Shown: one piece after another, positions 43,468-46,763 of the stretch | How the letters are laid out: every line of letters begins with the position of its first letter | Position numbering within the stretch: the stretch's first letter is position 1 | Notes under the pieces: model-generated | Database searches by the model: none | What the model saw: the letters and a program-made list of their open reading frames with translations, nothing else | What the model was told of the DNA's origin: nothing | Assembly: GCA_021849075.1 (NCBI GenBank) | Contig: JAJZTH010000002.1 | Coordinates: forward strand, 100,617-164,616 | Reading direction: 5' to 3' | Length of the DNA stretch: 64,000 nucleotides | Source: Pseudomonadota bacterium | GTDB lineage: Bacteria; Pseudomonadota; Alphaproteobacteria; Sphingomonadales; Sphingomonadaceae | Program-made: the position numbers and the translations under genes

Positions 43468-45258
43468 TCAGACGGCGGGGGCATCCTGAAACTGAAGGCT
43501 GGCAAGACGGGCATAGAGACCGCCTTGCGCCACCAGAGCGGCATGATCGCCCTGCTCCACGATCCGGCCGTCATCCATCACGATGATCCGGTCGGCGGCG
43601 CGCACGGTCGCCAGACGATGGGCGATGACGATCGTCGTCCGCCCCCGCATCAACGTGGCGAGCGCATCCTGCACCAACCGTTCCGATTCCGCGTCCAGTG
43701 CGGAGGTCGCTTCATCGAGCAGCAGGATCGGGGCGTCGCGGAGCAAAGCGCGGGCGATCGACAGGCGCTGACGCTGCCCGCCAGACAGGCGCGCGCCACC
43801 TTCACCCAGGAAAGTGTCCAGCCCCTGTGGCAAAGCGCGCAGGAAGCTTTCTGCATTGGCGGCGCGGGCCGCCTGCCAGATTTGGTCGTCGCTGGCGTCC
43901 CACAAGCCATAGCGCAGATTGTCGCGGGCCGAGGCGGCAAAGATCACGCTGTCCTGCGGCACCATGGCGATCATCGCGCGCAGGGCGGCCGGATCCGCAT
44001 CGGGCAAGGCTACGCCGTTGATCGTGATGCGGCCGGAATCAGGATCATAGAAACGCAGCGCCAGCTGGATCAGCGTCGATTTGCCCGCGCCCGAAGGGCC
44101 GACCACCGCCACCGTTTCCCCCGGCGCGGCATCGATCGACACGCCATGCAGAGCGGCCTGATCGGGACGGGTGGGATAATGGAAATGGACGGCGTCAAAA
44201 CATAGGCGCGCGCCTCTGTCCGTCGCTGGGATCGGCTGTGGTTGGGCCGGAGCTTGAATGTCCGGTACGGCGGTCATCAATTCTTCCAGCCGGCTGGCTG
44301 CGCCCGCGCCGCGCAACAAGTCACCCCAGCTTTCGGACAGCGATCCGAAAGCGCCGGCCACCAGGCCGCCGGTCAGCACGAAAGCGGCGATGCTGCCGCC
44401 CGACAGCCGCCCGGCCGCAACGTCGAGCGCGCCTTGCCACATGACGGCGGTGATCGATCCGAACACCAGCCCGATGACCACCGCGGTCATGATCGCCCGC
44501 AGGCCGATGCGCTTGCGCGCGGTGGCGAAGCCCGCTTCTACCGTGGCGTCGAAGCGGGCGGCTTCGCGCGTCTGTTGCCCGAAAGCCTGAACGATCTTCA
44601 TCGCGCCCAGCACTTCGCTCGTCACGCTGCCGACATCGGCCAGTCGGTCCTGACTGGCGCGGGACAGGCCACGCACCCGACGGCCAAGGCCGATCAGCAC
44701 CAGCAGGATCAGCGGAATGCCCAGCAGCAACAGCGCCGCCAGCTTGGGCGCGAGGACGAAAAGATAGATGAGGCCGCCAATCCCGGTAACAAGATTGCGC
44801 AACGCGACTGATACGGTCGATCCGACCACCTGTTCGACGATGGCCGTGTCGGCCGTCATGCGCGACGCGATTTCGGACGGGCGGTTCTCCTCGAAGAAAC
44901 GAGGCGCCTGTCGCAACAAATTGGCCTGGGTCGCGCTGCGAATGTCGGCGACCACGCGCTCGCCCAGCCAGGACACGAAATAGAATCGCAGGGCCGATGC
45001 GATTGCCAGCACGACGACGATCAGCAGCAGATATTCGAACCAGCGGCTGATGTCCCCGCCGCCCATGAAGCCCCGGTCGATCACCAGCCGGAAGCCGCTG
45101 GGAATGCCCAGCGTTGCGGCTGATGAAACGATCAGCGCCAGCAATGCGCCGGCGATGCGGCCGGGATAGCGGCGCGCGGCGCGCCACAGCATCGACAGGC
45201 TGCCTAGGGCGGGCCGCCTGGATGCAGGCGGCGGCGAAGCGGGGGCGATATCCTCCAT
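43468..45258 (-). CDS. ABC exporter, MsbA-like fused permease and ATPase
   Basis: A 596-residue half-transporter that would work as a homodimer in the inner membrane. Residues about 35-310 hold six helices; the ATPase follows with Walker A GPSGAGKST, Q-loop MVPQDSVIF, signature LSGGQRQRL, Walker B ILLLDEATSALD and the H-loop IVIAHRLATV. It is the MsbA/lipid-A and multidrug exporter type, but the substrate cannot be read from sequence. It follows the methyltransferase-anti-sigma fusion gene by 43 bases on the same strand, so the two are probably co-transcribed. Confidence 0.9.
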   Translation of the reverse strand: MEDIAPASPPPASRRPALGSLSMLWRAARRYPGRIAGALLALIVSSAATLGIPSGFRLVIDRGFMGGGDISRWFEYLLLIVVVLAIASALRFYFVSWLGERVVADIRSATQANLLRQAPRFFEENRPSEIASRMTADTAIVEQVVGSTVSVALRNLVTGIGGLIYLFVLAPKLAALLLLGIPLILLVLIGLGRRVRGLSRASQDRLADVGSVTSEVLGAMKIVQAFGQQTREAARFDATVEAGFATARKRIGLRAIMTAVVIGLVFGSITAVMWQGALDVAAGRLSGGSIAAFVLTGGLVAGAFGSLSESWGDLLRGAGAASRLEELMTAVPDIQAPAQPQPIPATDRGARLCFDAVHFHYPTRPDQAALHGVSIDAAPGETVAVVGPSGAGKSTLIQLALRFYDPDSGRITINGVALPDADPAALRAMIAMVPQDSVIFAASARDNLRYGLWDASDDQIWQAARAANAESFLRALPQGLDTFLGEGGARLSGGQRQRLSIARALLRDAPILLLDEATSALDAESERLVQDALATLMRGRTTIVIAHRLATVRAADRIIVMDDGRIVEQGDHAALVAQGGLYARLASLQFQDAPAV

Positions 45259-45301
45259 GGCCGGCGCTTAGCAGCCCGCCAACGCCGCCTCAATGGGACA
45301 T

Positions 45302-46594
45302 TCAGCCCGCGGGCGCGATGCTGCCCGCCAATTCCATGATCCGGCGCGGCGCCGCCTGCCCGGTCAGCGCATAGGCCATGTCGCCCGCCTCCCAATAGGC
45401 GCTGACGTCGCCGGCCCGTTCGGCCAGCAGCGGTTTGCCCTCCGCCGGCGTTTCTGCGCGGTCGGCGAAGAAGGACAGATGCTCGCCCCGCCCGGTCTCC
45501 AGCGACATGGCGATGGCCGGGCTGTCGGGCGTGGGGAAAAGCTGAACGTCGGTAACGCGCCAGTCGGCGGGCATGTGGGGCAGGACGATGCCGGTCGCGC
45601 GCTCGATCTCTTGCGGGTTGAGCGTGGCGCTTTCCACCTGAGAGGCCATGGCCTGCCGCAACAGGCCGGCCCGGCGGGACGCGGCGGCTTCATCCAGAAA
45701 GCTGCTGGCCTGCGCCGCCTGCGGAAATTCGCCCAGTTCGCCGCGTGCTATCCAACCCGTGGCGATCAGCGCGGCGATGGCGGCGGCGCGACCCATATGG
45801 CGCAGGGTGCGGCCGGCTTCATTATCGTTGGCGACAGGCATGCTGGTGTCGCGGCGTCGACCGAGCAGCGTGCCCTTGGTGCCATCCTTCATCAGGCGAA
45901 AGTCGATATGCGGCCAGCGCTGTCGCCAGCGGCGGGCCACCAGTCGTTCCCCGGGGCGGGCGGCGTCGTCCAGCAACACCACGCCGTTGGGAGAGAGGCG
46001 CGCGAACAGGCTGTCGGCCGCGCCGCGCACCAGCGGATGCACGCTCCAGGGCGGGCCGTCGATGATGATGAGGTCGATCTGATCAGGCAGCCGATCGATC
46101 GCATACCAGCGACCGGGCCAGTCGGCGCTTTCGTATGTCAGCGGGGCGTGGCGGATATCGACATCGAGCGCATGGTCGGCCAGCCACTGGCGCGTCGCGT
46201 CGACAAAGCCGCCATGCTGATCGAAACTGTGCAGCCGGCCGCCGCCATGAAGCTGCAGCGCCCGCGCCGCGATCAGGGAGGATGCGCCAGCGCCCAGTTC
46301 CACGACATGGGCAGGGCGCAGCCGGGCGATTTCCCGGACGATATGGCGCAGAAAGCCGACATCGGCCTTCCAGCTGCCCAGATGGGGCAGGGCGTCATGC
46401 GCCAGCCCCAGCTCGTCGAGCAGCGCGCGCTTGTCCGCCGGTCGCCCGCCCGACAGGCTGGCGAGCAGCCAGGGCCAGCCGATTGCGCCGAAACCGATGC
46501 GCCAGGCCATGTCCGACAGGCGACGGGGCAGATCATCCGGCTGCGCCCGCGTCTCGCTCAAGGGAAGAAGCCCGGTCAATTCGCGCGATGTCAC
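45302..46594 (-). CDS. Class I methyltransferase fused through a membrane helix to an anti-sigma-like domain
   Basis: A 430-residue protein with three parts. Residues about 60-248 form a Rossmann-fold SAM methyltransferase: motif I VVELGAGASSLIAA (97-110), LHSFDQHGGF (121-130), and LIIIDGPPWSVHP (175-187). A linker (MPVANDNEA, 252-260) leads to a membrane helix (about 267-283). The rest (291-430) resembles the periplasmic half of transmembrane anti-sigma factors: FLDEAAASRRAGLLRQAMAS, LPHMPADWRVTDVQLFP and SAYWEAGDMAYALTG. The zinc-binding or cytoplasmic anti-sigma domain normally in front of such a helix is missing; the methyltransferase is in its place. No sigma factor gene is adjacent. The C-terminal call is by pattern, not by search. 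Confidence 0.75.
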   Translation of the reverse strand: MTSRELTGLLPLSETRAQPDDLPRRLSDMAWRIGFGAIGWPWLLASLSGGRPADKRALLDELGLAHDALPHLGSWKADVGFLRHIVREIARLRPAHVVELGAGASSLIAARALQLHGGGRLHSFDQHGGFVDATRQWLADHALDVDIRHAPLTYESADWPGRWYAIDRLPDQIDLIIIDGPPWSVHPLVRGAADSLFARLSPNGVVLLDDAARPGERLVARRWRQRWPHIDFRLMKDGTKGTLLGRRRDTSMPVANDNEAGRTLRHMGRAAAIAALIATGWIARGELGEFPQAAQASSFLDEAAASRRAGLLRQAMASQVESATLNPQEIERATGIVLPHMPADWRVTDVQLFPTPDSPAIAMSLETGRGEHLSFFADRAETPAEGKPLLAERAGDVSAYWEAGDMAYALTGQAAPRRIMELAGSIAPAG

Positions 46595-46763
46595 AGGAAA
46601 ACAAGCTCCTTCATGAGAAAGGCGGCCTTATGCCGGGCAGGGTGTGACAGGCATATGACGGCCCGGTCGATCCTCATATAGCTAACGCCGGGAACGCCGA
46701 TCTTCCGTATAATGTCCATGATCATCGCCCAGCGCCTGATCACACAGGAGCCGGTCACGGCGT

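Follow-up and report, generated by a model that had tools for sequence, protein, structure and literature searches.

The protein encoded by the fusion gene in the window (the whole 64,000-nucleotide stretch of DNA analyzed here) joins a class I SAM methyltransferase to a predicted membrane helix and a periplasmic domain. Homology shows that this transmembrane and periplasmic tail is derived from an ECF anti-sigma factor, and the range of proteins that carry it shows it to be a portable module attached to several enzymes. The reading we prefer, with a probability of roughly 45%, is that the protein is a single-pass membrane methyltransferase whose anti-sigma-derived tail gates proteolysis in response to an envelope signal. 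The features on which the argument draws are as follows, in window coordinates.

45302..46594, minus strand: fusion gene, 430 amino acids, GTG start (open reading frame and near full-length homologs)
45845..46474, minus strand: class I SAM methyltransferase, predicted cytoplasmic, residues 41-250, with the Methyltransf_24 match at 98-210
45797..45844, minus strand: juxtamembrane linker, residues 251-266, sharing an NDN motif with both sulfotransferase fusions
45746..45796, minus strand: predicted membrane helix, residues 267-283 (marginal hydrophobicity and side-by-side sequences)
45707..45715, minus strand: A294-Q-A296, an AxA motif, weak candidate for a signal-peptidase-type or site-1 cleavage site
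45650..45700, minus strand: first periplasmic helix, residues 299-315, or 293-315 in the domain-alone model (AlphaFold2 models)
45317..45574, minus strand: fold like the RseB/MucB C-terminal domain, residues 341-426 (Foldseek, VIA, hhalign)
43468..45258, minus strand: MsbA-like ABC exporter, 43 bp downstream of the fusion gene, not a conserved part of the system

Architecture and integrity of the fusion gene

By its profile match and conserved residues the N-terminal half belongs to the class I SAM methyltransferases, just as the original prediction had it, and more precisely to the Methyltransf_24 type; methyl transfer is its predicted activity. Pfam Methyltransf_24 matches residues 98-210 at E 1.9e-9, with 38.8 bits against a cut-off of 26.3, and the whole protein has no NCBIfam match at E<=1. 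Residues E99, G101, G103, D125, D179-G-P181 and D209-D210 are invariant in alignments of 20 and 13 rows, and all of them apart from D209-D210 are what we take to be the conserved cofactor-site motifs. When the whole-protein model was searched against PDB folds, the top 50 were methyltransferases by title, except for Rv0187 rows with uninformative titles.

Near full-length matches with 69-93% identity, from which internal stops are absent, were found in 26 of the 36 other Sphingobium genomes searched, and the fusion is likewise intact at 28 of 32 loci taken from genome contig records. The four loci that are not intact comprise two broken frames (L059 and L060), a contig end (L061) and a methyltransferase alone (L062); the broken frames are those of Sphingobium sp. 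15-1 and chungbukense DJ77 (L059:5001-6279 and L060:5001-6253). The stop-codon loss or sequence error that the prediction had named as its own undoing is thus not what the genus presents. Across seven comparisons dN/dS was 0.035-0.20 for the methyltransferase and 0.07-0.28 for the C-terminal domain, and purifying selection acts on both halves of the fusion. A pair of adjacent separate genes was not seen, since the 8-11 kb around 20 stand-alone methyltransferases hold no gene for the C-terminal domain. An antisense open frame of 462 amino acids (45293-46681, plus strand) spans the whole fusion gene and is taken as spurious because the homologs and the conservation are on the minus strand.

Origin of the membrane and periplasmic tail

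The C-terminal half aligns with a 268-codon frame on contig 3 of the same genome (E 9.9e-28) and with frames of 242-294 codons in relatives of the genus (E 3e-21 to 8e-30, 34-46% identity). In the seven relatives read first, with lengths of 242-280 amino acids, a membrane helix separates a short N-terminal domain from the C-terminal domain. The anti-sigma relatives are preceded by an ECF sigma gene, which in most cases they overlap; the one sigma gene that was checked matches Pfam Sigma70_r2 and r4_2. These homologs, encoded directly after ECF sigma genes, bear out the proposal that the half resembles transmembrane anti-sigma factors. Searched alone against Pfam, FecR models included, the C-terminal half matched 0 families at E<=1. 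When the linker and helix region of an anti-sigma factor, RAAAVVALLSIGWAAH, is set beside that of the window, RAAAIAALIATGWIAR, and that of a sulfotransferase fusion, RMAAAIALFASGWIAN, the homologous part that they share takes in, on this alignment, the predicted membrane helix and some of the linker. The RxAAx..GWxA pattern of the helix is common to anti-sigma factors of other families.

A profile search with the C-terminal domain across 397 Sphingomonadaceae genomes, scoring 10 candidates per genome, found the domain in at least 52. Among the loci fetched, 106 distinct rows of the domain were classified: 39 have an anti-sigma N-terminus, 56 Methyltransf_24, 6 FkbM and 3 a glycerophosphotransferase-like protein, and 2 are unassigned (one of these is the tail part of a broken frame). 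Because rows were made distinct by the sequence of the C-terminal domain only, some species occur twice, and the numbers should not be read as those of independent events. Of the 39 anti-sigma-type proteins 38 have a sigma gene upstream, and of the 65 enzyme fusions none has, as judged with one sigma query over flanks that ranged from 32 bases (L084, at a contig end) to several kb and were mostly longer than 1 kb. Similarly, none of the 65 fusions, the one in the window among them, matches a profile of the sigma-binding domain of the 39 anti-sigma relatives at E<=0.01. With neither that domain nor an adjoining sigma gene, the enzyme does stand where the sigma-binding domain would be, as had been proposed. 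The same proposal had made this a zinc domain in the related anti-sigma factors, and here it fails: none of the 39 related domains has the HxxxCxxC motif, and Pfam zf-HC2 turns up in a single paralogue, at no better than E 0.2. A cysteine of any kind is found in the N-terminal region of 19 of the 39, a count that was discarded as evidence because the frame starts are uncertain. Two anti-sigma-type frames, L139:1736-2464 and L261:1589-2458, have no detectable upstream sigma gene, and the similar L262 has one.

The anti-sigma setting of the domain extends beyond the family. In a search of the Alphaproteobacteria, 50 of 289 genomes contained a C-terminal domain match. Thirty of the frames were read, namely the strong matches and part of the weak ones, with two repeats within the set and two that had been read previously, and a sigma-like frame was present in the fetched stretch for 29. 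We take these 29 to be anti-sigma factors; the sole exception, L141, is itself a methyltransferase fusion from Sphingomonadaceae. The anti-sigma setting is therefore widespread, and enzyme fusions are, among the frames read, confined to Sphingomonadaceae.

Since a fold search with the whole model returned methyltransferases in its top 50, the C-terminal domain was modeled alone (28-row alignment, pLDDT 76.9), which gave a helix, a second helix, six strands and a final helix. Both AlphaFold2 models come from shallow alignments, with pLDDT of 64 for one and 77 for the other. Foldseek with the domain model returned RseB/MucB chains for all of its top 10 hits, the best at E 2.4e-4 and three at E<=0.001. 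In VIA the first six rows were RseB or MucB, and the comparison with RseB 211-314 gave Z 7.6 and an rmsd of 3.9 over 96 residues; the next row, however, was the unrelated-looking 1vr8 at Z 6.7, and the tool warns that a Z below 8 can reflect a common arrangement. In an independent profile-profile test with hhalign, a set of 24 RseB-family proteins aligned with the deepened profile at E 5.2e-5 over 85 columns of the C-terminal domain of RseB; the score was 36.0, and none of 50 column shuffles exceeded 21.0. The first profile had given E 0.0015 and a score of 27.8, with 18.1 the highest value among 30 shuffles. The C-terminal domain profile did not find RseB among PDB sequences at E<=10, and this genome contains nothing that Pfam MucB_RseB_C matches at E<=0.01, so that the link to RseB rests on the fold and the profile-profile evidence. 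The modeled periplasmic fold thus resembles the C-terminal domain of RseB/MucB. Structure prediction and profile search have in this way given this half a fold which the original proposal did not name.

Distribution of the tail and the genes around it

The window's protein does not stand by itself. Four enzyme types carry the same tail, namely Methyltransf_24, FkbM methyltransferases, sulfotransferases and a glycerophosphotransferase-like type. For the FkbM fusions the Pfam match is to Methyltransf_21 (E 4e-11 and 6e-12). Three fusions of 576-584 amino acids (L108, L109 and L115) have an N-terminus like Glyphos_transf, a sub-threshold assignment with E 0.004 in one of the three. The sulfotransferase fusion is present in 2 of 60 genomes, all of a single genus (L249:4983-6485, minus strand, and L266:421-1914, plus strand), one assigned by Sulfotransfer_1 at E 4e-22 and the other by similarity.

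In a tree of the C-terminal domain rooted on the class-level anti-sigma sequences, the tails of the methyltransferase, sulfotransferase and glycerophosphotransferase-like fusions group in a single clade (100/99), and the FkbM tails lie elsewhere. Those of the sulfotransferases, on a long branch, arise from within those of the methyltransferases (96/94), so the module has apparently passed from one enzyme to another. A single origin of all enzyme tails is not rejected by the AU test, with p 0.12 without the sulfotransferase rows and p 0.37 with them. An earlier tree used 78 of the 106 rows, leaving aside two partial rows and 26 from Sphingobium that were nearly identical; from the later tree L123, L129, L130 and L131 were dropped as long or odd, and seven rows were added.

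Within Sphingobium the C-terminal domain is present in 64 of 94 genomes at E<=1e-8, with up to 44 candidates scored per genome. A methyltransferase-type frame of 431-513 codons occurs in 54 genomes and the FkbM type in 8, all but one of which were read; these type counts were made by hand from tables, and N-termini were read for the fetched loci only. Methyltransferase fusions read in other genera are L106, L107, L110-L114, L116-L120, L122, L124 and L130. The survey thus bears out a recurrent fusion, and one peculiar to a strain is ruled out by its occurrence throughout Sphingobium and other Sphingomonadaceae genera. Among the 397 family genomes the methyltransferase carries the tail in 20, including one where it is divided between two contig ends, and stands alone in 88, counts made by hand with 4 candidates scored per genome, so that absences are soft; two genomes have both forms. 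The stand-alone Methyltransf_24 proteins of the family share the enzyme half, are about 250 amino acids long and end where the linker starts. In a midpoint-rooted tree of the methyltransferase, 24 fused and 2 unfused rows form one clade (100/96) with 20 unfused rows outside it, which fits one fusion followed by two later losses, a history that needs three changes. On these comparisons the fused form arose inside the Methyltransf_24 enzymes of the same family. Within 6 kb of 20 stand-alone methyltransferases in other genera (L226:5146-7275, minus strand, and similar loci) lie genes that are presumably purA-like (6 cases), hisZ-like (6) and serA-like (9), names given by eye from the sequences.

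The original prediction also took the gene to be probably in one operon with the exporter, and derived from this envelope or lipid stress as a possible signal. The exporter scores 769.9 bits with TIGR02204, just under the cut-off of 780.4, and 439 against 602 with MsbA TIGR02203. No terminator-like site was found between it and the fusion gene, and in 37 of 41 Sphingobium rows it lies directly downstream, no more than about 200 nt away; in two of the four exceptions it is one or three genes away in larger stretches. In Sphingobium the two genes are therefore probably co-transcribed, and this part of the claim stands. Outside the genus it does not: none of 15 methyltransferase-fusion rows has the exporter directly downstream, which rules out the operon as a general feature. 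Two of the 15 (L114 and L116) have a weak ABC-type-scoring frame some 600-700 nt downstream. Being conserved in Sphingobium only, the exporter is weak evidence for what the signal might be.

Other neighbors point, loosely, to surface glycans. The FkbM fusions of three Sphingobium genomes (L066, L182 and L183) are near sulfotransferase-like and glycosyltransferase-like genes, and that of L182 (9573-15785) adjoins a sulfotransferase gene followed by glycosyltransferase and bacterial sugar transferase genes by Pfam, as in a surface-polysaccharide locus. Near the methyltransferase fusions outside Sphingobium no glycan genes were recognized. Sigma/anti-sigma pairs with the homologous tail are found beside a glycosyltransferase-like gene in L065, L072 and L073, the gene of L072 being identified by Pfam.

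Proposed mechanism and relation to known systems

According to the preferred reading, the methyltransferase would lie in the cytoplasm, with the membrane helix, a periplasmic helix and the RseB/MucB-C-terminal-like domain as its tail. The RseB-like domain would pack on its own membrane-proximal helix, as RseB/MucB does in trans on RseA/MucA, and would thereby hide a protease site. An envelope signal, perhaps a misassembled glycolipid or polysaccharide, would open the domain, after which site-1 cleavage followed by RseP would cut the tail and the enzyme would be released or destabilized. In this manner the state of the envelope would, with no sigma factor involved, turn the modification of a surface glycan or lipid either on or off. 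The tail, as a portable envelope-sensing or anchoring part, thus probably controls release or stability of the enzyme through regulated proteolysis.

Several precedents, together with the one M50 (RseP-type) protease match in the genome, favor such a self-folding, proteolysis-gating tail. Excerpts of a report on RseP describe it as cleaving type II single-pass proteins and FecR as still processed with MBP as its cytoplasmic domain (PMC8144685), so an unrelated cytoplasmic domain need not block this route. IutY, in the portions of its description consulted, is made as one protein of sigma factor and anti-sigma tail, from which Prc and RseP set the sigma factor free (PMC8999054). For RseA/MucA, excerpts of PMC7400510 identify the C-terminal domain of MucB/RseB as the main binding site for helix I of MucA/RseA and have MucB protecting MucA from site-1 cleavage by AlgW. 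The same excerpts place lipid A, as is thought, in the N-terminal domain of MucB (PMC7400510). What precedes the RseB-like domain in the fusion is the methyltransferase, the linker and the helices; since the lipid-binding N-terminal domain of RseB/MucB is absent, lipid sensing does not follow.

For enzymes like the four types found here, glycans or lipids are common substrates, and such enzymes gain from placement at the membrane. The main rival builds on this: the tail would be a constitutive anchor or docking arm at the inner membrane that binds an envelope-glycan partner, without signal-dependent proteolysis. We regard it as a serious contender, although we lean somewhat against it. The glycan-type neighbors of the FkbM fusions in three Sphingobium genomes suit it, but L181, the one FkbM fusion read outside Sphingobium, has no recognized neighbors of this type. 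A related methyltransferase from another family of the order (L071:4210-4977, minus strand) has an N-terminal hydrophobic helix of its own, so membrane placement may have arisen in another way; and since the stand-alone methyltransferase is commoner than the fused one (88 genomes against 20 of the 397), the tail is evidently optional. A plain anchor would, however, have no need of a folded domain that is under purifying selection and homologous to a regulator of sigma signaling.

It is improbable that one gene makes two proteins, an internal signal sequence being cut after A-x-A to give a periplasmic RseB-like protein and a membrane-bound methyltransferase. In 52 of the 56 methyltransferase fusions AxA stands a little way ahead of the first periplasmic motif, and A296 is invariant across 13 diverse fusions, but among the 39 anti-sigma relatives only 9 have the strict motif, and a looser cleavage motif, present in 55 of the 56, occurs in 56% of random windows of the C-terminal domain as well. 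Signal-peptidase cleavage at AxA is thus a weak case, the motif being barely above background. The distance from the hydrophobic core to AxA, about 13 residues, further argues against cleavage there, since it is longer than is usual for a signal peptidase site. A precedent exists in RsiV, whose site-1 protease is signal peptidase according to excerpts of PMC6066255.

Very unlikely, in turn, is a helix that is not inserted in the membrane, with the C-terminal half an extra domain of a soluble methyltransferase. The most hydrophobic 17-residue stretch within residues 256-301 is exactly 267-283, where the helix had been placed at the outset, but the stretch is short and marginal, with a mean Kyte-Doolittle value of 1.46 (against a mean of 2.01 in the 39 anti-sigma relatives) and only about 14 clearly apolar residues. 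In position and pattern it nevertheless corresponds to the membrane helix of anti-sigma factors linked to a sigma gene, and other fusions have more hydrophobic helices at the matching position. In 39 of the 56 methyltransferase fusions, with 14 ties, the N-terminal flank of the helix has more basic residues than the other flank, as it does in all 9 of the FkbM and glycerophosphotransferase-like fusions. A sequencing or annotation artefact, to which only the broken frames at 2 of the 32 contig loci would lend color, is already refuted by intact copies in tens of genomes, at identities down to 52% and with low dN/dS.

A functional role for the fusion, by whatever mechanism, is likely because the fusion recurs across genera. 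A broader thesis, that in Sphingomonadaceae the sensory half of an anti-sigma factor has become a transferable tail shuffled among at least four enzyme families and couples the state of the envelope directly to surface-modifying enzymes, is plausible but tentative. ECF signaling as taught runs from an envelope signal through an anti-sigma factor and a sigma factor to genes. If the thesis is true, there is an ECF-type branch whose output is envelope glycan or lipid chemistry at the protein level and not transcription, and such a family would connect the state of the envelope to its chemistry by a shorter route. For specialists the surprise would be a portable anti-sigma tail on several enzyme types. 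The natural domain swaps make the sensor part of anti-sigma factors testable, and an RseB-like domain built in cis may simplify the RseA-RseB switch. The original prediction knew of no described protein with this architecture, and in agreement with it no published description of such a fusion is among the literature matches listed, which are mostly from outside subscription journals.

Among known systems, the ECF anti-sigma factors of Alphaproteobacteria, single-pass proteins with RseA-like logic, have the same membrane helix and the whole periplasmic half in common with the fusion, which differs in carrying an enzyme in place of a sigma-binding domain and in having no adjoining sigma gene. 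To the C-terminal domain of RseB/MucB the tail is related by predicted fold and profile match over some 85-96 residues. The domain of the fusion is, in contrast, covalently attached to the membrane helix and lacks the lipid-binding N-terminal domain, whereas RseB/MucB is a free periplasmic protein. The Bacillus lysozyme receptor RsiV, in which ligand-gated site-1 cleavage takes place by the membrane helix according to excerpts of PMC6066255, is a possible model for the fusion, though its output is sigma V and the fusion tail, having no Pfam match, is likened to it by description only. Another comparison is with IutY of Pseudomonas putida and FecR, in which, as far as the consulted parts of PMC8999054 and PMC8144685 describe them, a cytoplasmic effector on an anti-sigma-type tail is released by RseP. 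Their output is a sigma factor or its activator, whereas that of the fusion, whose tail has no Pfam FecR match, would be an enzyme.
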